This document shows positions 4,990-29,369 of a stretch of 39,252 nt of DNA, in pieces. Each line of letters opens with the position of its first letter. The stretch's first letter is position 1. The notes beneath the pieces are model-generated. The model was not told where the DNA came from, did not search any database, and saw only the letters and a list, made by a program, of their open reading frames with translations. This DNA is from Okeania hirsuta. Its GTDB lineage: Bacteria; Cyanobacteriota; Cyanobacteriia; Cyanobacteriales; Microcoleaceae. Location of the stretch: NCBI RefSeq assembly GCF_003838195.1, contig NZ_RCBY01000053.1:1-39252 (forward strand), in the 5' to 3' direction. Made by a program: the position numbers and the translations under genes.

Positions 4990-5021
4990 TATTTCCCCCG
5001 TCTTTTTAACTCAAAAAATTG

Positions 5022-5171
5022 GGCATTGCTGAATTAAGATATGAAAGTAGGTTTATAGGGAACACTTAACTGGGAACAGGGAAAAGTTAATATTAACAAG
5101 TAGTTCAAACCATCCAAAATAAAAAATCCCAAATACAAAATTATCAAATCATACCCAGAATCAGCAACGCC
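5022..5171. mobile_element. MITE, GGCGTTGCTGA family, with 8-bp target duplication
   Basis: Starts GGCATTGCTGAATT and ends AATCAGCAACGCC, which are inverted termini. It is flanked by perfect direct repeats AAAAATTG at 5014-5021 and 5172-5179. It is 150 bp long, non-coding and AT-rich inside. It sits between the globin stop codon and the cobB start, two genes on the same strand. Confidence 0.85.
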
Positions 5172-5182
5172 AAAAATTGAAA

Positions 5183-5626
5183 TCAGGAAACACCTTCCTC
5201 TTCATAAATTTCATGCTCTCGGTGAATAAAAACTTCTGCCAACGCCTGATAAGCTTCTGTCCAAGCAGATATAACTTCTGGCGTAGCTGCCTCTCCCAAA
5301 ACATCCTGCATAGCTTGCAACATACATTCTCCCACCACTGGATATTGTTCCGGTAGTACATGAGTTTGCACATGGCGGTGAGCAATTTTTTCAACCATTG
5401 ATTTTAGACCAGCCAAATTATCAATATGAGCAGCATAACTATAAACTGCAGTAGCTAACTTTGCAGGTTGAGATCCATCAGCTTGAGCAGACATATTAAA
5501 CTGGGATTTGATTTCAGGATGATTTTCAAACATTATTTCATACATCCGAGTAGTAATTTGTTTTCCCTGTTTTTTCAGCACTGGTGCGGTAGATTTGACA
5601 ATATTAATTGTTTGTTGACTGACCAT
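5183..5626 (-). CDS. Single-domain bacterial haemoglobin (Vitreoscilla/flavohaemoglobin type)
   Basis: 147 aa, the typical length of a single-domain globin. Alignment by eye with Vitreoscilla haemoglobin and E. coli Hmp places every key residue at the same number: Tyr29 (B10), Gln53 (E7), proximal His85 (F8, in IAHRHVQTH), Tyr95 (PEQYPVVG) and Glu137 (VFIHREHEIY). The last two form the hydrogen-bond network to the proximal His that is diagnostic of this class. There is no FAD/NAD reductase domain, so it would need a separate reductase. Likely roles are O2 binding or NO dioxygenation in the cytoplasm. The next gene on the strand, cobB, is separated by a MITE, so no functional link is implied. 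Confidence 0.93.
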   Translation of the reverse strand: MVSQQTINIVKSTAPVLKKQGKQITTRMYEIMFENHPEIKSQFNMSAQADGSQPAKLATAVYSYAAHIDNLAGLKSMVEKIAHRHVQTHVLPEQYPVVGECMLQAMQDVLGEAATPEVISAWTEAYQALAEVFIHREHEIYEEEGVS

Positions 5627-5726
5627 ATATATTGTTAATAATTTGATACCAAAATAATTTTACCTTTCGATAATTTGTTATGGAATTAAATCAACTTTTT
5701 CTTTATACATATAAAGTCAAAAAAAA

Positions 5727-5857
5727 TAAGCAGGTAGGCGCGAATAAACGTCACTATGTAACGAAATGTTTATGCACCTCATATCCTTGAGATTGCTTCC
5801 TTCCATTCTGCTCCAATCGCAATGACGTAGTTGTAAATTTTCCCACCTACCTACTTA
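5727..5857. repeat. Inverted-repeat element, TAAGCAGGTAGG ends
   Basis: TAAGCAGGTAGG at 5727-5738 pairs with CCTACCTACTTA at 5846-5857 (one mismatch). The 131-bp element lies upstream of the globin gene. Directly after it, at 5859, a lone left terminus GGTGTTGCTGATTTGAGG of the GGCGTTGCTGA family begins, but no matching right end was found. Confidence 0.6.
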
Positions 5858-6040
5858 TGGTGTTGCTGATTTGAGGTATGAAATTAAACTTTAGGTAAAT
5901 TTTAAGCCAAAACAAGGCATTGCTTAGGGGTGGGATGAATATAAGTGGGGTGGGTATCCTGCCTGCCCAAAAATATCAGGAACGGGCAAATATCAGGAAC
6001 GGGCAAGATGCCAATTCCACTTCCACAGTGCAAATTATAT

Positions 6041-6155
6041 AAGACTTACGCACCTGCAACGTATTTTAGTCATTGCCATCGACAGGGTTTGCGTAGCAGT
6101 CCGGAACGGAAAGCAATCTCAAATCCTAGTTTTTCCTATCTCATAGGTAAGTCCT
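6041..6155. mobile_element. MITE-like element, AGGACTTACGCA family (copy 3)
   Basis: AAGACTTACGCA at 6041-6052 and TAGGTAAGTCCT at 6144-6155 are inverted ends. The inner sequence differs from the other copies and contains TTTGCGTAGCAGTCCGGAACGGAAAGC-like repeat text, so it may be a composite. It lies downstream of the glucosidase gene. Confidence 0.6.
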
Positions 6156-6226
6156 ATATTTCTCCCTGTTGCCTGTTGCCAGATGAGTTGTTGCCTCTTT
6201 TCTGGAGATGTCTATCATAACCAAAA

Positions 6227-8896
6227 CTAAATTTCACAGACATATTCGCTCCGTTGCTGAATCAACTTTGCTACTAAACCAGTCCAACCAGTCTGATGAC
6301 TCGCCCCTAAACCCGCACCATTATCGCCGTGAAAATATTCATAAAACAAAATTAAATTTTGCCAGTGGGGGTCATTTTGGAATATTTCTGTGTCACCATA
6401 AACTGGAGATTTTCCATTTTCATCCTTGAGGAAAATTTTAATTAGTCTCGCTTCAATTTCTAATGATACTTCCCATAAATTCATCATCCGACCTGAACCT
6501 GTCGGACATTCCACTCGAAAATCTTCACCTAAATAATTATGAAATCTTTGCAGAGATTCTATCATTAAATAATTAATTGGAAACCAGATTGGACCCCGCC
6601 AATTAGAATTTCCTCCAAACATTTGACTGGTAGATTCGGCAGGTTCATAATCAACTCTATATTCTTCTCCATTCGCATTAAAAATATAGGGATTTTCGGC
6701 ATGGAAATGAGATAAGGAACGAATACCATAATCGCTGAAAAATTCATTTTCATCTAACATTTTTTCGAGGATTATTCGTAGGCGTTCGGGACTAACAATT
6801 GCTAATAAACGTTCTGAGTCAATACCGCAAGCTTCCATACAAGCAATATTGGCGCTAAGGTCTATCCTATTTGCCATAAACCATTTTACCCGTTTCTGGA
6901 ATTTAGGTAATTGTTGTAAAGTTTCTGAGTCAATAATTGCCACAGCAAATAATGGAATTAATCCTACTATTGAACGGATTTTTATATGTATATCTTCTTT
7001 ATCTGGTTGGTGGAGAACATCATAATAAAAATTATCAGTTTCATCCCAGAGTTGAGTCCCATCTGAACCTAAATGATTCATGGCATCAACTATGTAGAGA
7101 AAATGCTCGAAAAATTTAGAAGCAATATCTTCGTATACTTCATTTTCTTTGGCAAGTTCCAGAGCAATAGTTAACATATCTAGACAGTACATTGCCATCC
7201 AACTTGTACCGTCTGATTGTTCAATATGACCTCCGGTTGGTAACTCTGAACTCCGGTCAAATACTCCAATATTATCTAAGCCTAAAAAGCCTCCTTCAAA
7301 CACATTATTCCCCTCAACATCTTTCTGATTTACCCACCAAGTAAAATTAAGTAAAAGTTTTTGAAATACTCTTTCGAGAAACTTGCGATCGCTACGACCA
7401 TAAAGTTCTTTTTCTATTTGATAAACTCGCCAAGTTGCCCAAGCATGAACGGGAGGATTTACATCACTAAAATTCCATTCATAAGCTGGTAATTGACCGT
7501 TGGGATGCATAAACCATTCTCTGGTTATTAGGTCTAATTGACGTTTAGCAAAATCAGGGTCAACTATTGCTAAAGGTACGGCATGAAATGCTAAATCCCA
7601 AACAGCATACCAAGGATATTCCCACTTATCAGGCATGGAAATTATATCGTCATTAAATAGATGAACCCACCCATAATTTCTAATATGTTTACGGTTTTCT
7701 GATACTGGCGGTTGGGTAGGGTCGCCTTTTAGCCATTCTTCGACAATATAATGATAATATTGTTTTGTCCAAAGTAGTCCGGCAAAGGCTTGACGCTGAA
7801 TATTACGCCATTCATCCTTCATTTTACAAGGGGAAAGACGCTGATAAAATTCATTTGCTTCTTGAATTCTGGTTTGAAAAGTTTCTTCAAATTCTGTGTC
7901 TAAAGGCTGTTTAATTTCTGGGGAGTTAGCAAGTCTCAATTTAACAATTTTAGTTTCACCTGGTTCTAGTTCTAGACGATAATGTGGAGAAAATTTAGTT
8001 CCATACATCTCTGGATTAATGGCATTTTTTTGACCGTTAACTAGATAATTATTGATGCCGTCTTTGGTATAAAGAGAATCATTTTTTTCTCCAAATAAAG
8101 TTTGTTTATTAGTTTCATTTTCTGTGAAAAATAGTTCCATTGTCTGAGGAAAATAAAACCACCTTTTTCCTAAAGTTGGATGCTCTGCTTCAATCAAACC
8201 AGGATTAACTTTTTTGAGGAGAGGTTTTTGGGATTTATTATCCCAAGACCAAGTATTTCTAAACCAAAGAGTGGGCAATAAGTGTAACGTCTTAGTTTCT
8301 GAACCTCGATTATTTACTGTAATTTTAATTAAGATATCTTCTGTTGTTGCTTTAGCATATTCAACCAAAACATCAAAATAACGATTTTCTGCAAATATTC
8401 CTGTGTCGAGTAGTTCGTATTCTGAAGATTTGCGGTCGCGCTGTTGATTTTCTGCTACTAAGTCAGCATAAGGATAAGCACTTTGAGGATATTTATAAAG
8501 TGCCTTCATGTAACTATGACTGGGGGTATTATCTAAGTAAAAATAATATTCTTTAACATCTTCCCCATGATTTCCTTGACTTCCCGTTAAACCAAAAAGT
8601 CGTTCCTTGATAATAGGGTCTTCGCCATTCCAGAGAGCGATCGCAAAGCACAGTCGTTGATGATTATCTGAAATACCACAAATACCGTCTTCTCCCCATC
8701 GATAAGCACGAGAAAGAGATTGTTCGTGGGAAAAGTAATCCCAAGCAGAACCATCTTCACTATAGTCTTCTCGTACTGTTCCCCACTGTCTCTCGCTCAA
8801 GTATGGCCCCCAGCGTCTCCAGTATGCTTCATGGTTGAGGTCTGCTTCTAATCTTTGTTCTTCTTGAGTAAATAGGTTATTGTTTTGAGTATTCAT
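6227..8896 (-). CDS. GH63-like (MGH1-type) glucosidase
   Basis: 889 aa. The sequence matches the large cytoplasmic glucosidase family found in many cyanobacteria, related to GH63 and the mannosylglycerate hydrolase (MGH1)-like (alpha/alpha)6 barrel. Visible family text includes an N-terminal [19 protein letters not shown] and [19 protein letters not shown] (about 25-70), [18 protein letters not shown] (about 425-445), the Trp-rich [30 protein letters not shown] (about 565) and the C-terminal [17 protein letters not shown] (about 760) and [11 protein letters not shown]. The last motifs line the sugar site in this clan. No signal peptide is seen, so it probably acts on a cytoplasmic alpha-glucoside such as a compatible solute or glycogen-derived sugar. 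Substrate cannot be read from sequence. It is monocistronic by context. Confidence 0.85.
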
Positions 8897-9116
8897 GATA
8901 ATTAATACTTCGGAACAGTTGAAAATATCAATTTATTATAATTTTCCTCAACTATCTGTAACACAATAACTATTTCTAAATCAGGGAATAGGGAACAGGG
9001 AACAGTGGTAAAAGCTTTTTCACGATCAACTCGATGAGCATTATCTTTTTCTTTACGGGTTTAATACCCCCCCATCTATACGATGTTTACAATTAGTTGG
9101 GTTATAAAACATGAAC
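8897..9116. other. Intergenic region without a gene
   Basis: Upstream region of the glucosidase gene. It is AT-rich, with a GGGAACAGGGAACAG short tandem repeat near 8990-9004. No ORF or clear promoter was recognised. Confidence 0.4.
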
Positions 9117-9204
9117 AGGACTTACGCACAGACATTAAATCTAATGAGGGCGAACGCCATTCGCCCCTACATATGGCGTTTTCAAGGTAAATTTGCTAAT
9201 TCCT
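9117..9204. mobile_element. MITE-like element, AGGACTTACGCA family (copy 2)
   Basis: Intact left end AGGACTTACGCA at 9117-9128 and a decayed right end TTGCTAATTCCT at 9193-9204. The interior CCCCTACATATGGCGTTTT matches the copy at 3334-3444. A short hairpin GGGCGAACGCCATTCGCCC lies in the middle. Confidence 0.7.
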
Positions 9205-9250
9205 GATGAAGTGACTTATCGAGGACTATCCCCATCCATTTTTTCCTTCT

Positions 9251-9327
9251 CTCCTAGATAACTAAACACCTTCTTCCTTCTTCCTTCTCTCCTAGATAAC
9301 TAAACACCTTCTTCCTTCTTCCTTCTT
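9251..9327. repeat. 38-bp tandem duplication, pyrimidine-rich
   Basis: CTCCTAGATAACTAAACACC plus a TTCTTCC tract occurs at 9251 and again at 9289, so the period is 38 bp. It abuts the 3' end of the DUF1622 gene. Confidence 0.75.
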
Positions 9328-9738
9328 TTATCTATTGAGATTATTTTTTTCTTCCAGTTCTTTCACTTCTTTTTCTAGGAAAAAGTTGAGAAAAGTCCTA
9401 ATTCCAGCAACTGCTGCTAACTTTCCAAGATCGCTCCAACTTGGAGAGATGGCAGTTCCTACTATATCAGCAGCTAACAGAAATTCTAAAGCTAGAACTA
9501 GGGAAATACCTAAGTCGAGTCTAATTCTTCCCTCTTGTGCAAAAAGCTGATTATTTTTCCGTCTGTGCCACATTTGTGCTAGTGCTTTTAGCACTGCAAA
9601 GGCAATAATAAAAACTGCAACTGCCTCAATAAAAATCTTCAGAATAAGGACAAACTCATCTAAAAAAATCTCAGCTAATTCTATTATATTTGTAGCTAGA
9701 TAAAAATATATCATTGAAAATAGATTGAGTAGATTCAT
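9328..9738 (-). CDS. DUF1622 family membrane protein
   Basis: 136 aa with three predicted hydrophobic segments: about 4-20, 28-52 (LILKIFIEAVAVFIIAFAVLKAL) and 75-95 (GISLVLALEFLLAADIVGT). The conserved DUF1622 core is R-x-D/x-LG-x-SLVLALEFLLAADIV, then SPSWSDLGKLAAVAGIRTFLNFFLEKEVKEL, which matches the family closely. The charged C-terminus (KELEEKNNLNR) is likely cytoplasmic. Function of the family is unknown. Its length is normal and it stands alone between repeat-rich gaps. Confidence 0.85.
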   Translation of the reverse strand: MNLLNLFSMIYFYLATNIIELAEIFLDEFVLILKIFIEAVAVFIIAFAVLKALAQMWHRRKNNQLFAQEGRIRLDLGISLVLALEFLLAADIVGTAISPSWSDLGKLAAVAGIRTFLNFFLEKEVKELEEKNNLNR

Positions 9739-9830
9739 TTTCCAGTATAGCGATCGCGTATTTTTCTAGATAGCAAATTAACAAATTATATCAAATTCGG
9801 TTAAACAGTTATAGAATGGTTAAGTCTTTA

Positions 9831-9855
9831 GGAGTCAGGAGTCAGGAGTCAGAAG
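9831..9855. repeat. GGAGTCA heptamer tandem repeat
   Basis: Three consecutive GGAGTCA units of the STRR type; the same unit recurs at 20077-20110 and, as the reverse complement, at 10331-10360. Confidence 0.7.
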
Positions 9856-9954
9856 AATCACAAAGATGAGCGTAGTTATGACGATTGAATATTTTTTTAT
9901 GTCCAATTCCCTCGGATTTGATCTTAAAACCCGGTGTTGGTGATTTGAGGTATG

Positions 9955-10186
9955 ATATCAAATCCGGTTAAATACCCTCACAATCAATAGACATCTCCAG
10001 AAAAGAGGCAACAGCTCATCTGGCAACAGGCAACCCACCCCTCGCCCCTCCCCCTCCTGGGAGGGGAATAATTGATAATTTATGGATAATAATTGATTTT
10101 ATTTTTGATTTTTACCAGATGTCTAATAGCTTAAAACCCTGATTATTACCTTATTGGATCTATATGCAATTAGGCGGATTTAATAT
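9955..10186 (-). mobile_element. Nested ATATCAAATCC-ended repeat (copy of 16857-17096, inverted)
   Basis: Ends ATATCAAATCC and GGATTTAATAT are inverted repeats. Read on the minus strand, nearly the whole element matches 16857-17096, including CTAATTGCATATAGATC, TTAGACATCTGG, the CCCCTCCTGGGAGGGG block and GGAGATGTCTATTGATTG. It is flanked by a direct TATGATATCA at 9951-9960 and 10184-10193. Removing it rebuilds the GAGGTATGATATCAT sequence seen in the copy at 12673. Confidence 0.75.
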
Positions 10187-10329
10187 GATATCATGTCCGG
10201 ATAATTACTGATAGAACTCCGTTCCGCGCTCCGCGTTAACGTTTGCGGTAGCATTCCGTAAGGAAAGTTGTGCGCCAGCAAACAAAAAACTTTCTGCTTC
10301 TACTCCTCTTTCTTCTTCTTTCTTCCCTA

Positions 10330-10360
<31 letters not shown>

Positions 10361-10400
10361 AGTCATTAAGATTAATATCACTCACGCGCTTCAGCAACCT

Positions 10401-12140
10401 CTAAAACCCAATATCATCCAGAGCAACCTGAGCTGCTTCATATAATTCTTCATCAGACACATATCGCCAGTCTGTATCTCCAATTTCCTGATAAAAAGTC
10501 TGGTCATAAGCACGAGTTTGAATAACCACTGGCATCGGTACCGCATGACCTAATACCAAAGCTTGTTGTTTAGAATCCAACTTTGCTAAAACAGACCGTA
10601 AACTATGACCGCCAGAAACTCCTGTAAAAATAGAATCTATATCCTTATCATCATTTAATAGAGCTGTAATTCTTGTACCAATTTGAGACATAACTTCTGC
10701 ATCTATCCCGGAAGGCCGCTGGTCTACTACCAATAAAGTTACAAAATATTTCCGCATTTCTCTAGCTATTGTTCCAAAAATAGTTGAACGTACTATTGCG
10801 GGGTCGAGAAAACGGTGAGCTTCCTCAATAGTTATAACTAATGGTTGAGGGCGATCGCTCGGATTTTTAGAACTCAAAAATTTATCAGCTTTCCGCACAT
10901 AACTATTATGAATTCTGCGAGTAATCATATTAGCAGCTAACATATAAGAAAGCATATTTGATTGGGAACCAAATTCAATAATAACGTGTTTACCAGCATC
11001 CAAAGATTCTAAAATTTCTTCAATATAATTATTAGTATTTTTTGTCTGCATATATTTCAGATTATCCAGTCGCAATAACTTTCTTTGTAAAGACATTATT
11101 GAACCTTTGTGACCCCTTTTCTCATCACAAAATGTTTGGATATCTTCATTAGTCATTTCTAGCAATTGAGAAATCCAAGACTTACCAAATTCACTTCTGA
11201 GAATATTTGCACTATCAATACTTGCCTCAGATAAATTTAATTCCCGTTGCACCAACCCAATATCTTCTACCTCAATTTGGTTATAACTTAAATACAATTC
11301 TCGTGCATCTCGCACCCCTCTACGTTTAGTCGCTTCTGGGTCGAGAGTCCAAAGTTCCACTCGTTCTGGAAACAATTGTTTTAAACCTTTTACCGTATTA
11401 ACTTGTTTTCCTTCCGCCATTGCTTCCCAACCATATTCAGAGTGCATATCAAAGATTAAATTTACAGCAGCTCCTTTACGAATAATCCCAGATAAAAGTA
11501 AACGAGTCAGAAAAGACTTACCTGTTCCTGACTTGCCAAAAATGCCATTACTCCGTTCTACAAATCTATCTAAATCTAAACAAACAGGTACATCCATATC
11601 AATAGGTTTACCCACAGCAAAATTGCGCCGACTCTGGTCATCTTCTCTACCAAAAACCAGACTAAAATCTCTCTCACTTGCGTCAAATACTTGGGAAAAA
11701 TGACTAGGAATAGTTTTCACTGGCATTAATTTAATTTCAGCACTGGTTTGAGCTTCAAAAGATGCTAGATTTTCTATAGATTGAGATTTTTTGTTATTGC
11801 TATTATCGTTATTAGCATTGAAATATACTGGGGATTTTTCTGAAGAAATAATTAACATCAACATTGGTGCAAGTTCGATCGTGCCGTAAGTACTACCTCC
11901 AGCTAAAACAGATTGCAAAAAATCATCTGTAGGTAAAGGAGGATTAATCATTATTCGTTCGCTGGATGTTCCTAATAAAACATCAGTTAACATACAAAAA
12001 AAGTGGGCGCGTACTCCTTTTACGACCAAAAATTTACCAACCCGCATATCTTCTACTAATATGTCTGGATGTAGTCGTACTTCTAGTCCTTGACTGAGAG
12101 AACCTTGAATTACTGAACCTAATGGTTGTTCAAAATCCAT
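10401..12140 (-). CDS. HerA/FtsK-like ATP-binding protein (DUF87 type)
   Basis: 579 aa. Residues 1-~100 form a beta-rich HAS-barrel-like N-terminus (VIQGSLSQGLEVRLHPD, then VGKFLVVKG). Walker A is FGKSGTGKS (201-209), followed by LIFDMHSEYGWEA, typical of HerA-type hexameric ATPases. Walker B is PLVITIEEAHRFL (about 430-442), and the sensor/arginine segment includes SQIGTRITALLNDDKDID. HerA proteins are ring motors in DNA end processing or conjugation-like transfer, usually beside nurA. No nurA is visible here, so the partner and role are unknown. The acidic C-terminus ends DDIGF. The stop codon overlaps a MITE, and the first 60 bp of the gene region are duplicated and inverted upstream. Confidence 0.85.
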   Translation of the reverse strand: MDFEQPLGSVIQGSLSQGLEVRLHPDILVEDMRVGKFLVVKGVRAHFFCMLTDVLLGTSSERIMINPPLPTDDFLQSVLAGGSTYGTIELAPMLMLIISSEKSPVYFNANNDNSNNKKSQSIENLASFEAQTSAEIKLMPVKTIPSHFSQVFDASERDFSLVFGREDDQSRRNFAVGKPIDMDVPVCLDLDRFVERSNGIFGKSGTGKSFLTRLLLSGIIRKGAAVNLIFDMHSEYGWEAMAEGKQVNTVKGLKQLFPERVELWTLDPEATKRRGVRDARELYLSYNQIEVEDIGLVQRELNLSEASIDSANILRSEFGKSWISQLLEMTNEDIQTFCDEKRGHKGSIMSLQRKLLRLDNLKYMQTKNTNNYIEEILESLDAGKHVIIEFGSQSNMLSYMLAANMITRRIHNSYVRKADKFLSSKNPSDRPQPLVITIEEAHRFLDPAIVRSTIFGTIAREMRKYFVTLLVVDQRPSGIDAEVMSQIGTRITALLNDDKDIDSIFTGVSGGHSLRSVLAKLDSKQQALVLGHAVPMPVVIQTRAYDQTFYQEIGDTDWRYVSDEELYEAAQVALDDIGF

Positions 12141-12412
12141 ATAAATTACTTAATTACTTGAGAATGCTATATCAAGTTATACCATTTTTATTAGCTATTG
12201 AGAGGAATTATATCAAGTAATTAAGTAATTTATATGGATTTTGAACAACCATTAGGTTCAGTAATTCAAGGTACTTCTAGTCCTTGACTGAGAGAACCTT
12301 GAATTACTGAACCTAATGGTTGTTCAAAATCCATATAAATTACTTAATTACTTGAGAATGCTATATCAAGTTATACCATTTTTATTAGCTATTGAGAGGA
12401 ATTATATCAAGT
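12077..12412. repeat. 142-bp direct duplication with a 60-bp inverted copy, at the ATPase gene start
   Basis: 12077-12218 is repeated at 12271-12412 (offset 194 bp). Between them 12213-12272 is the exact reverse complement of 12102-12161 and of 12296-12355. The unit covers the first ~20 codons of the ATPase gene plus its upstream region. The inverted copy can form 60-bp stems with loops of 51 and 23 nt. Confidence 0.93.
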
Positions 12413-12672
12413 CTGGTAGCATCGGTATTGTAAGGGTAAGGAAGAAGGAATAAAGAAGAAGGCTTTAGTTATCTAGAACAGAAGACTTAAAAGTTAGAAA
12501 AACTTAAATTTTCTGTAGATATTCACGCTAACTTTTACACAAAAGCAATTCTTATCTATCAATTTTCAATTATTTATCCCTGTTCCCTGTTTCCTGTTAT
12601 TTATTTTCTGGAGATGTCTATTTGATAAATGACTCAGCATTGATGGTAGGTATTCCTGCACATAACTTTTCC

Positions 12673-12860
12673 GGCGTTATTGATTTGAGGTATGATATCA
12701 TTCAGGATAAGAGGGCGAGCAAAAAACTTTCTCCTTCTACTCGGGGTTTCTGATTCTTTCTTCCCTCCTGACTCCTAACTTCCCCTCCTGGGAGGGACGT
12801 GGGGGTGGGTTGACTCCTAAGTAATTAGGATTAATATCATACACGTGCTTCAGCAACGCC
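12673..12860. mobile_element. MITE, GGCGTTGCTGA family, with 8-bp target duplication
   Basis: Left end GGCGTTATTGATTTGAGG, right end GTGCTTCAGCAACGCC. Flanked by ACTTTTCC at 12665-12672 and 12861-12868. It is 188 bp long. The interior shares GAGGTATGATATCAT, AAAAAACTTTCT and GGATTAATATCATACACG with the copy at 9933-10401. Confidence 0.87.
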
Positions 12861-12891
12861 ACTTTTCCAAGTATTTTCACAAGGCAGTTCA

Positions 12892-13005: not shown

Positions 13006-13257
13006 TTTTTCAACAAAGCCATAATTAATTATTAGACATCTGGTGAAAAAGATATAAACTTTTTGCAAGAGTAGGGAACAGGGAACAGCGGTGCGACCCC
13101 CCGTTGGCGACACACGCATCTGGTAGCGCACTCCTGTGAGGGAACAGGGAACAGGGAATAGATTTTCACACCTAAGATACGAAAAATGATTTTGTAAGTT
13201 ACTGTTACAACTCTAGCTTATTTTAAATAAAAAGCAAGTTTATTTTCTGGAGATATC

Positions 13258-13370
13258 GGCGTTGCTGATTTTAGCTATGATTTGTATTTTTTGGCGATTG
13301 CTAAACTATATTAATGACAAATATTTGAGATTCTTCAGTTTTTATTTTCATACCTTGATTCAGCAACGCC
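13258..13370. mobile_element. MITE, GGCGTTGCTGA family, with 8-bp target duplication
   Basis: GGCGTTGCTGATTTTAGC at the left, TTGATTCAGCAACGCC at the right, 113 bp. Flanked by GAGATATC at 13250-13257 and 13371-13378. The target is the GGAGATGTCT-type end of an AGACATCT element, so one repeat has inserted into another. It lies about 80 bp upstream of codA. Confidence 0.9.
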
Positions 13371-13448
13371 GAGATATCTATTAATTGTTGACCCTTCCAT
13401 GATAAAATTCAAATTACTGACTCCTAATTTTTTAACTACCAAAACTTC

Positions 13449-20110: not shown

Positions 20111-20224
20111 AAGAGGAAAAAAATAAGTAACAAAAGAAGAAGAAAGTTTTTGTTAGTGTAAGCAGAACGGAGTTCTATATAAGTCCAAGTAGTGTCATAA
20201 TTAACTTATTTGCTCAATGATTAT

Positions 20225-20779: not shown

Positions 20780-20802
20780 AAGATATTACTAAAAATTATA
20801 GA

Positions 20803-21477: not shown

Positions 21478-21569
21478 AAATCTTTGTTCATAGTAGTACG
21501 CGCTGGTATATTTACAAATTGCCGGAATGGCTAATTGCTGATTATCTGTATCTAGTCAGCTTTTTTCCT

Positions 21570-21609
21570 ACTCCCTGAATGTAGCGCTATAGTTCCTGTT
21601 TCAGGGAGT
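21570..21609 (+). terminator. Possible hairpin downstream of queC
   Basis: ACTCCCTGA at 21570-21578 pairs with TCAGGGAGT at 21601-21609 (9-bp perfect stem, 22-nt loop). It lies about 95 bp after queC and has no T-run directly after it, so a terminator role is only possible. A second perfect palindrome, GACCTTCCATGGAAGGTC, lies near 21687. Confidence 0.35.
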
Positions 21610-21785
21610 TGATAGTTTTGTTGCGAATATCGCAATAGAAGTTTTTACTTACAGCGGTTTTCATTTCGGTAGACCACACTAGGGACCTTCCATGGAAGGT
21701 CTCTACTGGGTTTTGATTGTGACGTCAGGTCATCAATCAGCAAAAGCGCTGTAGGAATTTCCCAGAAATCAACTATCTGAGAGTA

Positions 21786-21870
21786 TTGACATACTCCCGA
21801 CGCTCCCCTACGGGAGAGCGCGGGATTCTTCAGTCAGATAAGCCCTGACTGCAGTTTTAACAGAGGTGAT
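21786..21870 (-). ncRNA. Putative TnpB guide RNA scaffold 3' end
   Basis: On the minus strand the tnpB 3' end runs into the hairpin CGCTCTCCCGTAGGGGAGCG and stops with GTATGTCAA. TnpB guide RNAs (omega/re RNA) are known to be made from this place, with the flanking DNA as guide. Here the guide would be the reverse complement of about 21766-21785 (TACTCTCAGATAGTT...). The 5' limit is unknown. Confidence 0.45.
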
Positions 21871-23231
21871 GTCCTCCCCCTGTGTTGATAACAATCCTAT
21901 TTTTTGTATTAGTAGTGCTGAGTTATAGTCTCTGTCTAGTTCCTGTCCACATTTAGGGCAGGAATGCCAACGCTCAAATAAGCTTTTCGATACTTTATTC
22001 AAGCATTCCCAGCAATGTTGAGACGTACCTTTTGGGTCTACTTTGATAATTCTCTTGCCTAGTTTCCAGGCAACATACTCTAAAACCTGAACAAACTGAC
22101 CAAACGCTGCATCTTGCAAAGACTTATTTAATCCTGACTTAGCTGATTGGCCATTAGGCAAAAACTGACCATTACTTCCTAATTTAGCTTTGCAACGTCG
22201 GAGTAAGTTTGCTGTAAGTAGGTCTTCAAGGAATATCACCCTTACATCACTAAACAAATGATCAGCAAGTTTGAATTGCCAGTCCAGTCGTTGTCTAGCT
22301 ATCAACTGATGCAGTTTAGCTATTTTGCGTTTGAGAATTTTCCAAGACTTAGAATGTTTTTGTTTTTTTAGTTAATCTGACCTGTAGTTTAGACAACCGA
22401 TATTCAGAGAGCCTGAAAAATTTAGGAACTTCTATAAACTCACCATCACTGGTAACAACATAGTGCAACAATCCTAAATCAATACATGCATGAGTTATCT
22501 TCGGTGGGTTGAATTTCTACAACCTCATAAGGTACCGTCTTATCTTCTATCGTGAAGCTAATATACCATCCGTCTGCTTCACGGATTACTGTACCTGTCT
22601 TAACTTTGAATCCTGTTGGTATTGGACGATTGTATACTAAAGCGACTAAGCCAATTTTTGGCAGATTTACACAAAAACGACCGTTGGCATTTTTGACAAT
22701 ATTTGCATTTGATAGTTGAGGATAACTAAAAGAGTTATAGTAATGCCTACCTTTGAATTTAGGTCTACCACTGGTTTTACCTTTTTTGTCGGGTTTGCTA
22801 AAGTTATCCATAGTAGTTTGTACTCTTTGGATAACATCTTGCAGGACCTGAGAGTGTATAGACTTGTATTCCCGAAATAGCTTTTTAGTTTGTGCTAAGT
22901 CCGCCAATTGAACAGTCTCCCACAAAACATAACCATTGACTAAATTCGGATGTTGATCCCCTTTCCTTGTTATGGGATTACCATCACTGTCTTTTTTCCT
23001 GCCATCTCCAAAATGCACTCTAAATTCGGGGATATTTTGATAAATCCGTTCTATTGGCACTACTGAAACATTAAGTGGACAAGCATTGACTGGTGTGCGC
23101 GTTGCTTCAAACCAGTTTAACCTTTCAGCTAAACGGTAATTATATTGTCGTCGAGCTAATTCTAACCAATTAGCTATAATTACCCCTTGCCTTTTATGTG
23201 GCTTGAGCTTGTACTTATATTTCAGGAGCAT
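21808..23231 (-). pseudogene. tnpB: TnpB RNA-guided nuclease, frameshifted
   Basis: The N-terminal part (start at ATG 23231, MLLKYKYKLKPHKRQG) runs to about 22490. The frame then shifts, and CIDLGLLHYVV, holding the RuvC-I Asp, is read in another frame. A second shift occurs near 22360 at a run of A/T bases. The remaining frame holds the RuvC-II Glu (VIFLEDLL), a zinc ribbon (CWEC...CPKC) and the RuvC-III Asp (LDRDYNSALL). All catalytic parts can be found, but not in one frame, so it is inactive unless the shifts are sequencing errors or are bypassed. Ends VRAYLTEESRALP, whose codons overlap the right-end RNA scaffold. Confidence 0.88.
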
Positions 23232-23314
23232 GGCAGAATCGACCTTTATATCTACAATTAGGTAGTATATCAAAAATAAGGGCAAACCACACAGACAACG
23301 CCCGGATATCCCAT

Positions 23315-23365
23315 ACGACGCTCCCCAAGGGGAGAGCGCGGGACTTCCCGCCGGGGGAGTTAAAA
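23315..23365. repeat. Solo copy of a TnpB-element right-end hairpin
   Basis: GACGCTCCCCAAGGGGAGAGCGCGGGA resembles the right-end hairpin of the adjacent element in the same orientation, followed by a GC-rich CCCGCCGGGGG stretch. It lies outside the inferred left end, so it may be the relic of another element. Confidence 0.5.
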
Positions 23366-23588
23366 AATAAAAACAAAAAAAATATAGGCGGATTAACTAA
23401 TTGAATCTGTCAAATTCTACCAATTTCCCTTAAAATTTTATTAACGGCTATTACAATTTTATTAAAAAATAATACTGTTTTAGATTTTTGTGTTTTAATT
23501 TTCCTCTTTTAAACACAAAATAATTCTTCAACTTTGTTATCACTAAATATTGTAATTGTCAAGACAAAAACTTTTATAGTTTTGAATT

Positions 23589-24359
23589 ATGGAATGGCAA
23601 GAAAATTCTGGTAATTGGGTACTAATACCTTCTCACCCCAAAGCAGTCATACATTTTTTGGGAGGAGCGTTTGTTGCAACTGCACCCAATGTAACTTATC
23701 GGTGGTTATTGGAAATGCTAGCAAATCAAGGATATGCAGTAATAGCGACTCCTTTTGTCAATACTTTAGATCATTTAGCAATGGCTAAAAATGTTCTCAG
23801 CAGTTTTGATAGCTGTCTCAATCTTATTTATGCTCAAAGAATACTGCGAAAAAAAAGTCTACCTATATATGGCATTGGGCATAGCATGGGATGTAAGTTA
23901 CATTTACTGATAGGTAGCTTATTTTCTCTAGAAAGAGCTGGAAATATTTTGATATCTTTTAATAATTCTGCAGCTCGTGATGCAATACCCTTGGTGGAAC
24001 AGATATCTCCTGTGATAAAAGTAGAATTTACTCCATCTCCTAAGATTACAAACCGCCTAATTCAAAAGCGTTATCAAATTCGGCGCAATTTATTGATTAA
24101 ATTTAAAGACGATGATATAGATCAAACTCTTCGTTTGAGTGATTTGTTGAGATTACGTTTTCCCGATCTGGTGACAGTTAAAAGATTAAATGGAAATCAT
24201 TTAACACCTTTGGGCCAAGATATAAATTGGCCTGTAGGAAAAGTATATACTCCTATAGATGCGATCGGTCAATGGCTCAAACAAGAAGTTTATCGAGACC
24301 TCAATCAACTTAAACGTGAAATTTTGCTTTGGCTCAATCCATTGGCACAAATCTCATAG
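23589..24359 (+). CDS. DUF1350 family alpha/beta-hydrolase-like protein
   Basis: 256 aa. The start WxENSGNWVLIPSHPKAVIHFLGGAFVATAPNVTYRWLLEMLANQGYAVIATPFVNTLDH is the conserved DUF1350 N-terminus of cyanobacteria and plastids. The nucleophile-elbow-like GIGHSMGCKLHLLIGS (about 97-112) suggests an alpha/beta hydrolase, with Ser in GHSMG. A late NGNHLTPLG supplies a candidate catalytic His. The reaction is unknown. Full length. The following gene is convergent, with only about 24 bp between the stops. Confidence 0.85.
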   Translation: MEWQENSGNWVLIPSHPKAVIHFLGGAFVATAPNVTYRWLLEMLANQGYAVIATPFVNTLDHLAMAKNVLSSFDSCLNLIYAQRILRKKSLPIYGIGHSMGCKLHLLIGSLFSLERAGNILISFNNSAARDAIPLVEQISPVIKVEFTPSPKITNRLIQKRYQIRRNLLIKFKDDDIDQTLRLSDLLRLRFPDLVTVKRLNGNHLTPLGQDINWPVGKVYTPIDAIGQWLKQEVYRDLNQLKREILLWLNPLAQIS

Positions 24360-24382
24360 CTTTACACTCACACATTTTAGAT

Positions 24383-24877
24383 TTAGCTGTTACTATCAGA
24401 AGTTTGATTTTGTTCTTTGGGGTATGGCCAATAATCTTTACTAATTAACAAACAATTCCGATTTTCGGATGTGCTACGGGTATAACTAATATTGTCTGCT
24501 ATGGCATACATAAGTTTTATACCCCGTCCACCAGGAGCAAACATATCTGTTTGAGCTGGTTGTGCTTTTAACCATTCTTCCAAGTCAAAAGGCGGACCAC
24601 AATCCCAAATTCTAATTTCTGTGTGGTCACTGAATATTGTAACTTCAATGTCTATAAGTGTTTCTCTAGATAAATCTCTATGGGCATGGCGGGCTGCATT
24701 AGTAAAACCTTCAGCCAAAGCCAGCTCACACTGTAGCCAAACTGTTTTCGGAATAGCTGCTTGATATAATTGTTCAAACCATGACAAAACTTTGTCGTTT
24801 TCTCTAAGGTCTGAACTAACTTGTAAAAAAGCACTATGTTTCGTAGGTAATTTATCAGATCCTTTGACTTTATTCAC
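24383..24877 (-). CDS. Anti-sigma factor kinase-type protein (RsbW/SpoIIAB-like HATPase)
   Basis: 164 aa. A GHKL ATPase of the short RsbW class: N box ELALAEGFTNAARHAH (about 61-76), G1 box IRIWDCGPPFD and G2 box GGRGIKLMYAIADNISY. There is no sensor or dimerisation domain. Such kinases bind sigma factors or phosphorylate STAS anti-anti-sigma proteins. The divergent neighbour at 25226 is a REC-SpoIIE phosphatase, which would dephosphorylate the same STAS substrate. The STAS partner is not in this window. N-terminal residues 1-15 are uncertain. Confidence 0.87.
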   Translation of the reverse strand: MNKVKGSDKLPTKHSAFLQVSSDLRENDKVLSWFEQLYQAAIPKTVWLQCELALAEGFTNAARHAHRDLSRETLIDIEVTIFSDHTEIRIWDCGPPFDLEEWLKAQPAQTDMFAPGGRGIKLMYAIADNISYTRSTSENRNCLLISKDYWPYPKEQNQTSDSNS

Positions 24878-25225
24878 ACTTACTGTCTTAAATTTATTAC
24901 ATAATATTTTAGGTATATCCTAAGCTATATTGTAAAGTATGTGTATAAAATTTATGTAAATAATTAAAAAAAATGAAGAAAGTTGATGAAAAAAGGGATT
25001 CGATCCCAATGTAAGATTGAAGACCACTAATTTTTAAAAGGCGTGGGAGAATTAAACCCAATATCTGCAAAATGAAGGAATTAAGAAAAGACAAAAAATA
25101 TTAGCACTTTACTTATATCCTTCCTCCTGCTTCATTCAAATGAAGCGAGTGAAATAAAAACTCCTGTTGGTCTACTCACTTTTATGTTGGCTTTAGCCGA
25201 AACAGTGAATTGTTGAACTGAGTGC
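24878..25225. other. Divergent intergenic region between kinase and phosphatase genes
   Basis: About 350 bp, AT-rich, serving both divergent genes. It contains a short palindrome GGGATTCGATCCC (about 24997) and CTTCATTCAAATGAAG (about 25130). No recognisable promoter consensus or RNA gene. Confidence 0.4.
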
Positions 25226-26362
25226 ATGATGTATAAAATTTTGGTTATTGATGATGATATTGCCATTCAGGAATTGCTCAAAAGAGTTCTCCAGAAACAG
25301 GGTTATGAAGTGACGGTAGCAAGTAATGGTGAAGATGGTTTTCAACAGGCACAAAATTTACAACCTGCTTTGATTATCTGTGACTGGGTCATGCCACGAC
25401 TCACAGGAATAGAGGTATGCAGCCGAGTTAAAACAAATTCTGAACTATCTACTACTTTCTTCATTTTATTAACTTCTTTAGGAACGGTTCAAGATCGAGT
25501 TAAGGGTCTGGACGCAGGTGCTGATGACTTTATTTCTAAACCAATAGAAATGAGTGAATTGACCGCCAGGGTCAGAGCAGGGTTACGATTACATCAGCTA
25601 TCTCAAGACTTACAAACCCAAAAGCGACTATTAGAAGCAGAATTAGCTGAAGCTGCTGATTATGTGCGCTCTCTTCTACCAGAACCCTTAATGGAACCAG
25701 TAAAAGTTGAATCACAGTTTATTCCTTCCCACAAATTAGGAGGAGACTGCTTTGATTATTATTGGCTAGACGAAAATTACTTGGCTATGTATTTACTGGA
25801 TGTAGCTGGCCATGGTTTACGGGCAGCACTTCCTTCTGTGTCAGTTTTGAATTTATTAAGGTCGAAGGCAATACCGAATATAGATTACCATCAACCTAGT
25901 GATGTACTTAGAGCTTTAAATAATACTTACCAGATGACCTATCAAAATGACAAATACTTTACAATCTGGTATGGGGTGTATAATCGCTCTGAAAATCAAC
26001 TGGTATATGCAAGTGCAGGTCATCCTCCGGCTGTTTTAATCTTAGGTAATGGTCAGCCTAGTCAGGTGAATAAGTTGAAAACTCCAGGAGTACCTATTGG
26101 TATGTTTCCAGATGTGACTTATGTTGATAATTCTTGTTTAGTTGAGAAGTTAAGTTCTCTGTATATCTTTAGTGATGGTGTTTATGAAATTCCTCAACCT
26201 GGAGGAGAAATCTGGGGTATAGATAACTTTATCGATCTAATTTTAGAGTACCATAAATACGGTTATTTTCATCTAGATAAGATATTAAACTATGTGCGAG
26301 ATTTGAATTGTGGTCATGCCTTTAGTGATGATTTTTCTTTACTAAAAATTATTTTTGGTTAG
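25226..26362 (+). CDS. Response regulator with SpoIIE-type PP2C phosphatase output
   Basis: 378 aa. Receiver domain 1-~122: acidic pocket VIDDDI, phospho-acceptor Asp53 in ICDWVMP, Thr/Ser in LLTSLG and Lys in FISKP. A coiled linker (LHQLSQDLQTQKRLLEAELAEAADYVRSLLP) leads to the SpoIIE/RsbU-like PP2C domain (~145-378): GGDCFDYYW, LLDVAGHGLRAALPSV, YASAGHPPAVLI, LYIFSDGVYE and FSDDFSLLKI carry the metal-binding aspartates. RsbU-type phosphatases act on phosphorylated STAS anti-sigma antagonists. ATG 25226 is followed by a second ATG at 25229; either may be used. Confidence 0.92.
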   Translation: MMYKILVIDDDIAIQELLKRVLQKQGYEVTVASNGEDGFQQAQNLQPALIICDWVMPRLTGIEVCSRVKTNSELSTTFFILLTSLGTVQDRVKGLDAGADDFISKPIEMSELTARVRAGLRLHQLSQDLQTQKRLLEAELAEAADYVRSLLPEPLMEPVKVESQFIPSHKLGGDCFDYYWLDENYLAMYLLDVAGHGLRAALPSVSVLNLLRSKAIPNIDYHQPSDVLRALNNTYQMTYQNDKYFTIWYGVYNRSENQLVYASAGHPPAVLILGNGQPSQVNKLKTPGVPIGMFPDVTYVDNSCLVEKLSSLYIFSDGVYEIPQPGGEIWGIDNFIDLILEYHKYGYFHLDKILNYVRDLNCGHAFSDDFSLLKIIFG

Positions 26363-26511
26363 CTTGCTGATATAAGCTAAGAGACATTTAGGTTTTATGT
26401 TCTTTGTTAAGGGTTAAGGGTTCCCTTTGATCAAGAAGTTCTATAGTTTAAATGTTCAAAAGCTTATATCAGGTGTGATAAATATTTGTTAAAAATACTT
26501 AGGGTGTTTGT
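26363..26511. other. Intergenic region without a gene
   Basis: Contains GTTAAGGGTTAAGGGTTCCC-like short repeats near 26406-26424; nothing else recognised. Confidence 0.35.
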
Positions 26512-26616
26512 AGTAGTCTGTCAAGATAGTTTTGAGGGGTCATATTACCCAAAAAACATTACCCAAAAATCACAGTTACAAAAATCTATCCATCACTTCA
26601 AAGTTGACAGACCACT
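26512..26616. repeat. Inverted-repeat element, AGTAGTCTGTCAA ends
   Basis: AGTAGTCTGTCAA (26512-26524) and TTGACAGACCACT (26604-26616) pair in 12 of 13 positions. It is 105 bp long, with no coding content. It lies just before the stop-interrupted paralog at 26631. Confidence 0.6.
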
Positions 26617-26630
26617 AATAGTTTGCAGAT

Positions 26631-26942
26631 ATGCCTTCAGTAAAATCTGCCTTTAGTAACATCTTTGATTATGTAGAAACAGCTAATTTTTTTGCCAATA
26701 TCTGTCGAAAGCCAAATGGTCAATTAATTTATATTGGTGGTCAAAAAGCTAATCCTGAAAATGCTATTAAGATACCTGCAATAGCTGAATAGGGAACTGG
26801 ATATGTTGCTGAAAACGGAAATATTATCTATATTGTAACAGGTGCTACTTTAAGTATTGTAGAAAATGGTAAGACTATCAGTGAAGAACAAATAACCTAT
26901 GTGTGTAGTCAATTTTTTGAAAAAGTATGTCAAGAGAGATAG
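26631..26942 (+). pseudogene. Stop-interrupted paralog of the small secreted protein at 27090
   Basis: A single frame of 104 codons from ATG 26631 to TAG 26940-26942 contains one in-frame TAG at about codon 54. The first part includes FFANICRKPNGQLIYIGGQKANPENAIKIP, which parallels YFANICRQPNGKLMLVAGRKSNPNQVLELP of the downstream gene. The second part (GTGYVAENGNIIYIV...EEQITYVCSQFF) parallels QGYAAIDGNKTF...REEITY. So this is a tandem duplicate whose N-terminus (signal peptide) is missing and whose frame is interrupted. Confidence 0.75.
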
Positions 26943-27089
26943 TAGCTCTATTGATTTTTATTTCAAGAAAGTTTAATTCGCCTCCCTTGCCAGATATGCT
27001 TTTTATTGAATCATAGAAATTTAATTATTAAATTTTGCTTCTATGTTGTATCATGGAATCCATTAATTAATTTATCGGAGAACTAAACT

Positions 27090-27530
27090 GTGAATTTTGT
27101 TAAGACTAATCAACAGCTCTTAAAGTTAGGACTGTTGACAATTACTACATTCTTTTTATATACATTTTTAGCAAAAGCTCTAGCAGATCATAACAATCTA
27201 GAAACAGAGCAAGGAACTATATTATTAGCTGAACTTCCCCGGAATAATCGGCGTATTTGTCTTCAACGTGGAGACAACTGGTCTGAAGTAAATTATTTTG
27301 AATCCAAGAACTATTTTGCCAATATTTGTCGTCAACCAAATGGTAAATTAATGTTAGTTGCAGGCAGAAAATCTAATCCGAATCAAGTTTTAGAGTTACC
27401 TGTAGAATTTAATCAAGGATATGCTGCAATTGATGGAAATAAAACTTTCAGAGTGAATGATGGTTCTTTTAGTCTAGCAATCAATGGTCTGGTCGTGAAG
27501 AGAGAAGAAATTACTTATCAACAACAATAA
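27090..27530 (+). CDS. Small secreted protein of unknown function
   Basis: 146 aa, GTG start at 27090 with GGAG 9 bp upstream. Residues about 10-30 (KLGLLTITTFFLYTFLAKALA) form a signal peptide likely cut after ALA. The mature part has two Cys, ICLQRGDNWSEVNYF and NICRQPNGKLML, then DGSFSLAINGLVVKREEI. No family recognised; it resembles small periplasmic hypotheticals of cyanobacteria. A decayed tandem paralog lies just upstream. The paired cysteines may form a disulfide. Confidence 0.75.
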   Translation: MNFVKTNQQLLKLGLLTITTFFLYTFLAKALADHNNLETEQGTILLAELPRNNRRICLQRGDNWSEVNYFESKNYFANICRQPNGKLMLVAGRKSNPNQVLELPVEFNQGYAAIDGNKTFRVNDGSFSLAINGLVVKREEITYQQQ

Positions 27531-27679
27531 AACTAGGTATTGTTGATTTGCGATTGAAGCAAAAATTAAAAATTAAGATGTTAGAGTAATTATTTCCTCT
27601 ATTCATTATGATAAATCAATACAAACAGTCTCTAATATATTTCGGTGGTCCTGTATATGTAGTGATAAAATTGTGGTCA

Positions 27680-28265
27680 GGCGATATAGCTGCTGCTAGT
27701 CTCCCCCTCTCATGTAGCGCAGCGAAACGCTTCATTTAGTTTCTATATCAATTGCTAATCAGAGCCATTGTTTGTGATTTTTATGGTCAACAAATGACTA
27801 CATTTCATTACATTGGATTATGAGTTTACCCAGTTTTTTCTTAGTATATTTAATAGACCGAGAAACTTCAGCATACTTATTATTAACGTAATTCTGGAAC
27901 CATTTTTTCGACACACCTGTTACACGAATTAAAAAGTGCCAAACTAATTTATCAATTAATTCTTTGGCTTCATTACTAAATATAATTTATTTTACTATTT
28001 TCCACAAATTTTCACAGACAATTTTGACACTGATATTTTTGTTTTTCTGAAGTGAATAATCCCATTTTTAACAATATAATTACTACCACAACTAGGGCAG
28101 AACTGAATTATAGAGATAGAGATTTTTTATGATTACTTTCAATAGATAATAGGATACTTTTTGCTTAGAATGTTTGGGGTTAATTCCTGATGATTTTATA
28201 GCTGATTATATGAAGCGTTTTGCTGCGCGACATGAAAGGCAGATCCTAGAGGCAGCTATATTGCC
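27680..28265 (-). mobile_element. Internally deleted IS1-family element
   Basis: GGCGATATAGCTGC at 27680 and its inverse GCAGCTATATTGCC ending at 28265 are inverted ends; about 60 bp inward the similarity continues (TGCGCGACATG, GAAGCGTTTTGC). Between them, on the minus strand, lies IS1-type transposase coding text. At 586 bp it is shorter than a full IS1 (about 770 bp). Confidence 0.7.
27730..28110 (-). pseudogene. IS1-family transposase remnant
   Basis: Minus-strand reading gives FCPSCGSNYIVKNG (InsA zinc finger), then in a shifted frame KQKYQCQNCL and FVENSK. Another shift gives FSNEAKELIDKLVWH, TGVSKKWFQNYVNNKY and LIIQCNEM. After a stop comes SFVDHKNHKQWL and LAIDI. These match the IS1 (InsAB') transposase in order, up to just past the first catalytic region. 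Several shifts and stops make it dead, and the C-terminal DDE part is missing. Confidence 0.85.
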
Positions 28266-28753
28266 TAGACAATAAATTTTTAAATTTTTCAGCAGGAGAA
28301 AACGTAACTGGAGAGTACAAAGTTCTTCTAAAAAACGGTGTGCTCTCAAGACTGATAAGTATTACTGGAAAAGGCTTACTGAAGAATTAATAATTAAATA
28401 ATTAAATAATTCAGGTTGAAAGCTTCCCCTTTCAAGGGGAAAAAAATAAATTTTTTCCTTTTAGTTAATCCTCTCCCTTTTAGGGAGAGGTAATTATCCA
28501 TTATCCATTATCCATGGATGAAAGCACCTATTATTCTGAATCGATAGTTTTTAACCTTGAGTCCCTGAAAGCCTTGGCTAGCAATAGTTATTCCAAGAAC
28601 TTTACACTGTCTAAAAACGTAATATTTTCAAGATTAATCTCAAAAACTAATAATTTATATTGACTTATCACTACATATACAGGACTATCACTTATCTAGT
28701 GTACATACAGCATTAATATCTACATCTCAATCCCAATAAAAAAATTTTCCAGT
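28266..28753. other. Intergenic region with small hairpins
   Basis: No gene seen. Notable are hairpins CCCCTTTCAAGGGG (about 28427) and CCTCTCCCTTTTAGGGAGAGG (28470-28490), a tandem TTATCCA repeat near 28494-28515, and a doubled ATTAAATAA near 28392-28408. Confidence 0.45.
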
Positions 28754-29369
28754 TTACAAAATTATACCTTTCTGGTCATCAGTGACTACAACTTCATTTT
28801 CGTCAAAGGGTACATCACCAGTGTTAGTCACTTCATAAGTCCCAGTAACTGTCTCACCAGCAGCAATTTCTACTGCTTCCTCTATGGTGTCAGCATCTAC
28901 ACCATTAGTGAACTTTTCAATGTCAATACCAGGGTCTTGAGGATCTGGTTCGCCGTTAACGTAGTGACTAGGATCTTCGTCGGTGACATCATCAGCAACA
29001 ACTTTACCAATATTTTTATAGATGCCGTCACCTATGCTGTCAAAATCTAACCCAGAAATAGCACTGCTACCAGCAAGTTCAACTTCCCAAATAATTCAAT
29101 TGCTATCTGTCTCAAATGAAGGGGTGTCATTCTTGGGAATCTCAATGGGTATTGTAAATTGGCGTTGGTAAATTACAGGATGAAATTTGTAGGGGCAATC
29201 CCCCAATGATTAACCGGGGTAGGTTACAGAGCGCTACCCCAAAATATAAATCATCCCATTAATTACCAACGCTGTAAATTCAATTACTTGAGTACCCGCA
29301 GTTATTGTTTGATTAATCAAAGGTTGTTCTAGGATGATTTTTTTAGAACTTCTTCTTTTTCTTTGAGTT
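28754..29369 (-). pseudogene. Fragment of a large repeat-containing surface or adhesin-like protein
   Basis: The minus strand is open from 29095 to the stop at 28754-28756: EVELAGSSAISGLDFDSIGDGIYKNIGKV, then DIEKFTNGVDADTIEEA, GETVTGTYEVTNTGDVPFDENEVVVTDDQ. Such 'tNtGdvp' modules occur in SD-repeat/DUF11-like extracellular proteins. One TGA near 29096 separates it from TIPIEIPKNDTPSFETDSN. The frame then runs into a MITE (29161-29272) and resumes beyond it as LEQPLINQTITAGTQVIEF once the element and one target copy are removed. Both ends of the original gene are lost, so it is a pseudogene. Confidence 0.75.
29161..29272. mobile_element. MITE, GGCGTTG-ended, with 8-bp target duplication, inside a decayed ORF
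   Basis: Starts GGCGTTGGTAAATTACAGG and ends TTAATTACCAACGC, 112 bp. Flanked by TGTAAATT at 29153-29160 and 29273-29280. Removing element plus one TGTAAATT joins the flanking minus-strand reading frames without a shift. Confidence 0.9.

Follow-up and report, generated by a model that had tools for sequence, protein, structure and literature searches.

Five miniature transposable elements of the cyanobacterium Okeania hirsuta very probably belong to the IS1 family

Miniature inverted-repeat transposable elements (MITEs) are abundant in some cyanobacterial genomes, where they can break genes, and some of them are reported to lack a recognizable parent (PMC3542288). The elements treated here are five short insertions in a 39,252-nucleotide stretch of the Okeania hirsuta genome (assembly GCF_003838195.1, contig NZ_RCBY01000053.1, positions 1 to 39,252; "the window" in the following), and they have counterparts among described systems. 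The 187-nt MITE of Microcystis aeruginosa PCC 7806, present in about 30 copies, resembles them in its cyanobacterial host, its 8-nt direct repeats and the tracing of a parental insertion sequence (IS) via the ends; it differs in its ISL3-family parent, in ends that start with GGCTCTTCG and in that the counted copies are identical, whereas several diverged groups exist in O. hirsuta (PMC11448079). The "type II" MITEs of Anabaena sp. 90 are similarly abundant, with 147 copies of 77-541 bp, 15 of them within genes, but are reported as lacking similarity to IS ends of that genome (PMC3542288). Nezha and the MITEs of Anabaena PCC 7120 and A. variabilis are further cyanobacterial MITEs mentioned in a review (PMC10969869).

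We consider it very probable that the five O. hirsuta elements are MITEs of the IS1 family. This is based on ends in common, an 8-bp target duplication, the presence of IS1 transposase genes between such ends, deletion derivatives and targets that are unoccupied in relatives, all of which are observed; that an IS1 transposase mobilized these very elements in trans, and by which chemistry, is what we infer from them. IS1-family elements carry insA and insB' in two frames that are joined by a -1 shift at a run of A residues, and they duplicate 8-9 bp of their target. The full-length relatives described below agree with this family (NF033558, PF03400) in their transposase, in a zinc-ribbon InsA, in two overlapping frames joined at the A-run in most of them, in ends starting with GG and in duplications of 8-9 bp, the resolved elements of this group measuring 752-896 bp; the differences are that the window copies lack a transposase and that the full-length copies in this genome are broken. 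The InsA/InsB' two-ORF (open reading frame) layout has been described for IS1 (PMC8944449), and copies of the IS1-like ISMae3 differ between laboratory lines (PMC11448079).

The window elements and their population in the genome

A letter-by-letter check located all five copies exactly as first described and upheld the initial annotation in its account of inverted ends and of perfect 8-bp flanking repeats that differ from copy to copy (no strand is assigned to any of these features). Copy 1 (5022-5171, 150 bp) has the ends GGCATTGCTGAATTAAGATATGA and GGCGTTGCTGATTCTGGGTATGA and lies between two copies of AAAAATTG (5014-5021 and 5172-5179). Copy 2 (9933-10401, 469 bp; TAAAACCC at 9925-9932 and 10402-10409) is inserted at the stop codon of an ORF on the minus strand (10401-12140), which the right duplication overlaps; two same-genus relatives introduced below (G041 and G042) also have a stop at this place. 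The right end of copy 3 (12673-12860, 188 bp; ACTTTTCC at 12665-12672 and 12861-12868) is 96% identical over 25 bp to one end of an 845-bp IS1 relic, and copy 4 (13258-13370, 113 bp; GAGATATC at 13250-13257 and 13371-13378) possesses two exact ends. Copy 5 (29161-29272, 112 bp; TGTAAATT at 29153-29160 and 29273-29280) sits in a former coding sequence that reads through as coding in relative G043 and is also broken elsewhere in the window; its ends are of the GGCGTTGGTAA type, with the outermost base of the right one absent, and resemble those of an 815-bp IS1 relic in contig C125 of the same genome.

Terminal inverted repeats are present in the window copies, albeit imperfect in copies 1, 2, 3 and 5, and the exact end sequence GGCGTTGCTGA occurs at four of the ten ends, the others being mismatched or, in copy 5, different. 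A scan of the window for the end 11-mer with up to two mismatches retrieved 25 occurrences against 4.4 expected, a number reached in none of 100 shuffles. With lengths of 112-469 bp and without transposase the copies fall within the size definition of MITEs (under about 600 bp). As claimed at the outset, no transposase is encoded in them: none of the five copies contains an IS1-model match, the sole match of the contig being that at 27723-27932, and a search of the same contig (C479) with PF03400 yielded nothing. A GGTGTTGCTGATTTGAGGTATGAAATT end at 5859-5885 on the plus strand, to which the duplication scan of the window assigned no element, is a solo or decayed MITE end.

The source assembly, labelled G000 here, is an 8.79-Mb draft of 716 contigs. 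Exact GGCGTTGCTGA is found in it 161 times (84 + 77; 72 + 89 in a second tally), compared with a single occurrence of the reversed pattern. All 161 ends were covered by a pairing rule that combined an exact end with an opposed end of up to three mismatches at a distance of 50-1200 bp. Among the 262 end pairs tested in this way, 59 are flanked by an exact 8-bp repeat and 11 more by a repeat matching at seven of eight positions, and the exact pairs correspond to 56 distinct elements (the element in C216 was counted thrice and two pairs share a right end in C82). Repeats of 5, 6, 7, 11 and 12 bp appeared once each and those of 4, 9 and 10 bp never, while displaced flanks, serving as control, gave 8-bp repeats with a mean of 0.09 and a maximum of one. 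The duplications seen in the window thus persist at genome scale. Exact duplications account for 71 of the 161 ends, and tolerance of one mismatch raises this number to 84; A+T makes up 81% of the duplicated targets as a raw figure. Each of 19 genomes searched contains the end 11-mer more often than its reversed control (7 vs 3 in the weakest case), a sample that is biased by having been picked for carrying such IS1 elements.

Two census entries have unusual architectures. At G000:C82:8234-8770 two end-bounded stretches are adjacent, and the 8-bp word AAAATTTC occurs to their left, between them and to their right, as if one element had landed in the target duplication of the other. At G000:C216:1546-1882 the right end and the duplication are present three times at a spacing of 91 bp, that is as a tandem expansion of a MITE end.

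The comparison among miniatures drew on 54 elements with exact duplications and 11 with seven-of-eight duplications, together with copies 2 and 5 of the window, both of them lacking an exact end. Single-linkage clustering, with matches required over 70% of the shorter element, placed 62 of these 67 in six clusters of 16, 13, 12, 10, 6 and 5 members and left five single; the best pairwise identities within clusters range from 66% to 99.3%. Copy 1 falls into the cluster of 12, copies 2 and 3 into that of 16, with additional interior in copy 2, copy 4 into that of 6, and copy 5 stands alone. The window copies had been taken for one MITE family, a view that has to be given up, as they represent four groups by ends and interior; the presumed family is a set of end-sharing groups with at least four end classes.

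Two MITEs (G000:C501:15475-15688 and C689:15358-15611) are hybrids that carry GGGATGAA at one end and GTATGATA at the other between exact 8-bp duplications, which suggests cross-recognition or recombination between IS1 subgroups. The MITEs at G000:C33:5833-6205, C111:3472-3844 and C102:8574-8914 and an 816-bp IS1 at C54 all contain the same nested repeat of about 130 bp, which reads as a separate repeat family. Internal stretches of two MITEs of 373 bp and one of 341 bp that match the 816-bp IS1 were candidates for transposase remnants; upon inspection they read as this nested repeat and are not counted as evidence of descent.

IS1 elements with the same ends

The initial annotation had guessed at an IS1 parent, and the guess was right in so far as IS1-family transposase genes are bounded by the same ends and by 8-bp duplications, both in O. 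hirsuta and in other cyanobacteria. Two of the 56 census elements enclose broken genes of this kind and are full-length decayed IS1 copies, one of 845 bp (G000:C6:7828-8672, TTATTTTT) and one of 778 bp (G000:C68:3231-4008, AAATTGCA). The latter scores 149.7 bits against NF033558 (cut-off 100), and DNA related to the former, often partial, is present in 41 of 61 genomes of the family, O. hirsuta included.

A scan of GTDB genomes kept 80 IS1 loci of 312 relatives. Ends and duplication were resolved by script in 40 of them, the duplication measuring 8 bp in 34 cases and 9 bp in 6; several of these 40 are copies from one genome and the loci are therefore not independent, L252 is a mis-call onto ISL3-like ends, and L223 is shifted by one base. 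GGCGTTG starts 67 of the 80 end sequences of the resolved loci. Of 134 MITE ends, 116 have a second conserved block, ATGA, that starts within positions 16-23, and so do 73 of the 80 IS1 ends; at the same offset 35 bp further in, the counts are 5 and 2, respectively.

In the 856-bp element L088, from a relative of the same family (genome G024), both insA and insB' are open frames, with their overlap at the A-run; the element matches a locus of Microcoleus sp. FACHB-61 in length, ends and flanking duplication. Its two parts reach 131.5 and 116.8 bits with NF033558 ("IS1 family transposase"), for which L092 yields 248.3 bits (cut-off 100 in each case), and the second part reaches 73.5 bits with PF03400 (cut-off 24.1). 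The zinc ribbon of L088 stays just under the PF03811 cut-off (24.4 vs 26.1) and scores 55.7 with the IS1/IS1595 zinc domain NF050000 (cut-off 28).

The insA/insB' junction was located in 34 of 41 elements; joining the frames needs a -1 shift in 21 of them and a +1 shift in seven, including L088, and six have a single frame. The length of the A-run at the junction drifts, with A8 in 15 of the 21 -1 cases, A7 in five of the seven +1 cases and A9 in three of the six in-frame cases; L216, L220 and L236 are examples, and several copies in Nodosilinea sp. LEGE 06152 share the +1 arrangement. A junction that drifts in this way would be easier to reconcile with slippage on the A-run than with a strict -1 ribosomal frameshift.

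Miniatures and full-length elements are connected by sequence. A 112-bp element (G000:C708:24542-24653) retains the first 39 and the last 48 bp of the 778-bp IS at 81-82% identity, and 44 of the 67 miniatures match an IS1 terminus over at least 18 bp at both ends, although most match IS1 in the outer 20-40 bp only. The 259-bp element at G000:C185:3646-3904, with ends AATTAAAT and AATTAAAC, a duplication of seven of eight positions and an IS1-model match inside, contains one frame in which the second half of the InsA zinc ribbon runs directly into residues like the InsB C-terminus. Its InsA part is 46% identical over 35 residues to InsA of an element in C46 (tblastn, E 4e-9), and by these features it looks like an IS1 that lost its middle and decayed afterwards. 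The ends of this element are similar to those of the 13-member GGTAATGAT cluster, which has no IS1-terminus match apart from one 20-bp end. Internal deletion of IS1 gave rise to at least some of the miniatures, and many are IS1 ends around unrelated filler. As judged by sequence comparison, a parental IS with the same ends is present, most weakly so for copy 5.

An IS1-type (InsAB') transposase supplied by a full-length relative, resident now or formerly, would recognize ends of about 23 bp, made up of the tip block GGCGTTGC and of ATGA at about positions 20-23. Insertion would proceed through strand-transfer points 8 bp apart, and repair of the resulting gaps would produce the 8-bp duplication.

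Target sites in relatives and activity

Four same-genus genomes (G040-G043), 92-97% identical to the window in the query stretches for copies 1-4, were available for comparison. The target of copy 4 is unoccupied exactly in G040, which has TTTTCTGGAGATATCTATTAATTG with a single GAGATATC. For copy 5, G043 has GATTGTAAATTCGATCG, in which TGTAAATT occurs once, the flanks being about 85% identical. Copy 1 is present in G040 and has a single-copy target in G041 and G043, subject to a caveat on the left side. The comparison with relatives proposed at the outset thus yields empty sites, exactly for copy 4 and with these restrictions for copies 5 and 1. The regions around copies 2 and 3 are heavily rearranged in the relatives and offer no clean unoccupied site: the right part and right junction of copy 2 are also found in G040 and G043, while in G041 and G042 TAAAACCC occurs once and the left flank is unlike, and both junctions of copy 3 are present in G040.

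Twenty-four further sites were drawn at random from 51 available. At least 11 of these (sites 0, 3, 7, 9, 11, 13, 14, 17, 18, 20 and 21) have a relative that runs uninterrupted across the join, though the coverage of site 0 on the left side is only 22 bp, the match at site 9 has an identity of 79% and site 21 is part of a multi-copy repeat; site 23, where the match passes the join by only 15 bp, was left out of the count. At site 15, G040 contains an insert that equals the element in length (182 bp), as far as a comparison of lengths goes.

Since insertions differ among close relatives, a transposase must have been available after the lineages separated. The claim of recent activity is in part supported, copies 4 and 5 being absent from at least one same-genus relative. 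G040, on the other hand, shares copy 1, copy 3 at both of its junctions and copy 2 in its right part, and an intact IS1 transposase was not found, so that present-day activity of the MITEs is not established by the assembly.

The window contains further repeats. Two overlapping long inverted repeats at 12085-12355, with arms of 77 and 70 nt that are 91% and 94% complementary, precede copy 3 by about 300 bp, and several inverted repeats of 26-50 nt holding GCACCAAAA and GCGATCGC are located at 38720-39251.

Weighing the explanations

Several observations speak against assigning the elements to IS1 or limit how far the assignment carries. In the census, 77 of the 161 ends have no partner giving a duplication of at least seven of eight positions; such ends may stand alone, may have decayed, may be nested or truncated at the edge of a contig, or may not stem from IS1. 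Among the 67 miniatures, 23 are without a two-ended IS1 match, including window copies 2 and 5 as well as the GGTAATGAT cluster with its 13 members. That cluster is tied to IS1 via the similar-ended 259-bp element of C185, in which the InsB part is a match of 17 residues to L088 (8 identical, E 0.007) and the first InsA residues lie in a different frame. Copy 5 is linked by a short stretch of common end sequence, and around the 815-bp IS1 that has ends of this kind no duplication was found. The clusters as such depend on single linkage with identities down to 66%. The 845-bp relic is decayed, scoring 25.6 bits with PF03400 (cut-off 24.1) and 71.2 with NF033558 (cut-off 100), and its zinc ribbon is under the Pfam cut-off. 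As for the unoccupied targets, G041 and G043 have unlike sequence a few bases to the left of the copy 1 target, and the place in G043 that corresponds to copy 5 could be paralogous. Finally, the search of the draft assembly yielded no intact IS1 transposase: of 56 model matches, four extend over nine tenths of the model or more, and each of these is interrupted by stops, and nowhere do two neighbouring partial matches combine into a complete one with both halves free of stops. Because some matches are cut by contig ends and identical multi-copy elements are easily lost from a draft of 716 contigs, intact copies could be missing from it.

Mobilization by an ISL3-family transposase, the proposed parent of the M. 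aeruginosa PCC 7806 MITE, would account for the duplication length and has that cyanobacterial precedent (PMC11448079), yet the published ISL3 MITE ends start with GGCTCTTCG. The ends in O. hirsuta are of the GGCGTTGCTGA type, by which an ISL3-derived MITE is rejected, and IS1 transposase genes lie between these very ends. The pair of GGCTCTTC ends called for L252 is a separate element type, and we regard an ISL3 origin as very improbable. A parent closer at hand would be the IS1-like relic at about 27680 that the initial annotation had pointed to as a possible link. Its IS1-family membership stands, as it has the model match at 27723-27932 and resides in the same window. The relic, rearranged and located on the minus strand (27644-28689), has GGTAGTCCTGTATATG inverted ends, and its flanks show no duplication when read. 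Over 517 bp it shares 77% identity with a 997-bp element located at another place in the genome, and elements of 996-997 bp with GGTAGTCCTGTATATG ends are its near relatives. The relic is not the parent of the MITEs because its ends and relatives belong to this other subgroup; the end sequences refute such a role, to which we attach next to no probability. Hardly any credence is likewise given to the notion that recombination or repair spread the elements as palindromic repeats, with 8-bp flanks that are due to chance or borne by the repeat. At least some elements do carry further internal repeats, but the duplications vary between copies and are exactly 8 bp long in 59 pairs against 0.09 expected, and relatives hold the single-copy target without the element; for the elements with unoccupied sites this notion is refuted.

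A variant within the IS1 reading deserves more attention. It holds that no transposase-supplying IS1 is resident any longer, that the MITEs spread together with IS1 copies that have since decayed, and that the genome is their graveyard. The lack of an intact IS1 transposase in the assembly, the insertions common to G040 and the often partial state of the IS1-related DNA in the family agree with this; the draft state of the assembly and the absence of several insertions from same-genus relatives at 79-98% flank identity do not. We consider this variant unlikely, while keeping it in view as a serious option. A further reading, which we hold to be less likely than not, is that one pool of IS1-type transposase serves a consortium of diverged non-autonomous elements in the genus, by which the six multi-copy clusters and the hybrid-ended elements would have been moved.

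Both IS1 and MITEs are well known, and the contribution of this work is the identification of a likely parent, for which no priority is claimed. In the literature surveyed, which comprised accessible parts of PMC10969869, PMC3542288, PMC11448079 and PMC3428304 among others and did not extend to ISfinder and the main cyanobacterial MITE papers, no statement was found that names IS1 as parent of cyanobacterial MITEs. A literature search with the end 11-mer gave titles on animals, human cells, a plant, fungi and a red alga among the matches listed, and neither the complementary 11-mer in combination with cyanobacteria nor ISMhu11 together with the IS1 family gave a match.

For O. hirsuta, a large MITE population is tied to IS1 by the census, by deletion derivatives and by unoccupied sites, and several small insertions of the window are accounted for without a new mechanism. 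The ends provide a searchable signature (GGCGTTGC, about 11 bp, ATGA) in conjunction with an 8-bp duplication. If a shared transposase pool indeed serves the diverged elements, recognition by IS1 would be relaxed enough for hybrids to move, and MITEs would still be moving after the resident IS1 had decayed. The cyanobacterial "type II" MITEs that were reported without a parent may likewise derive from IS1.

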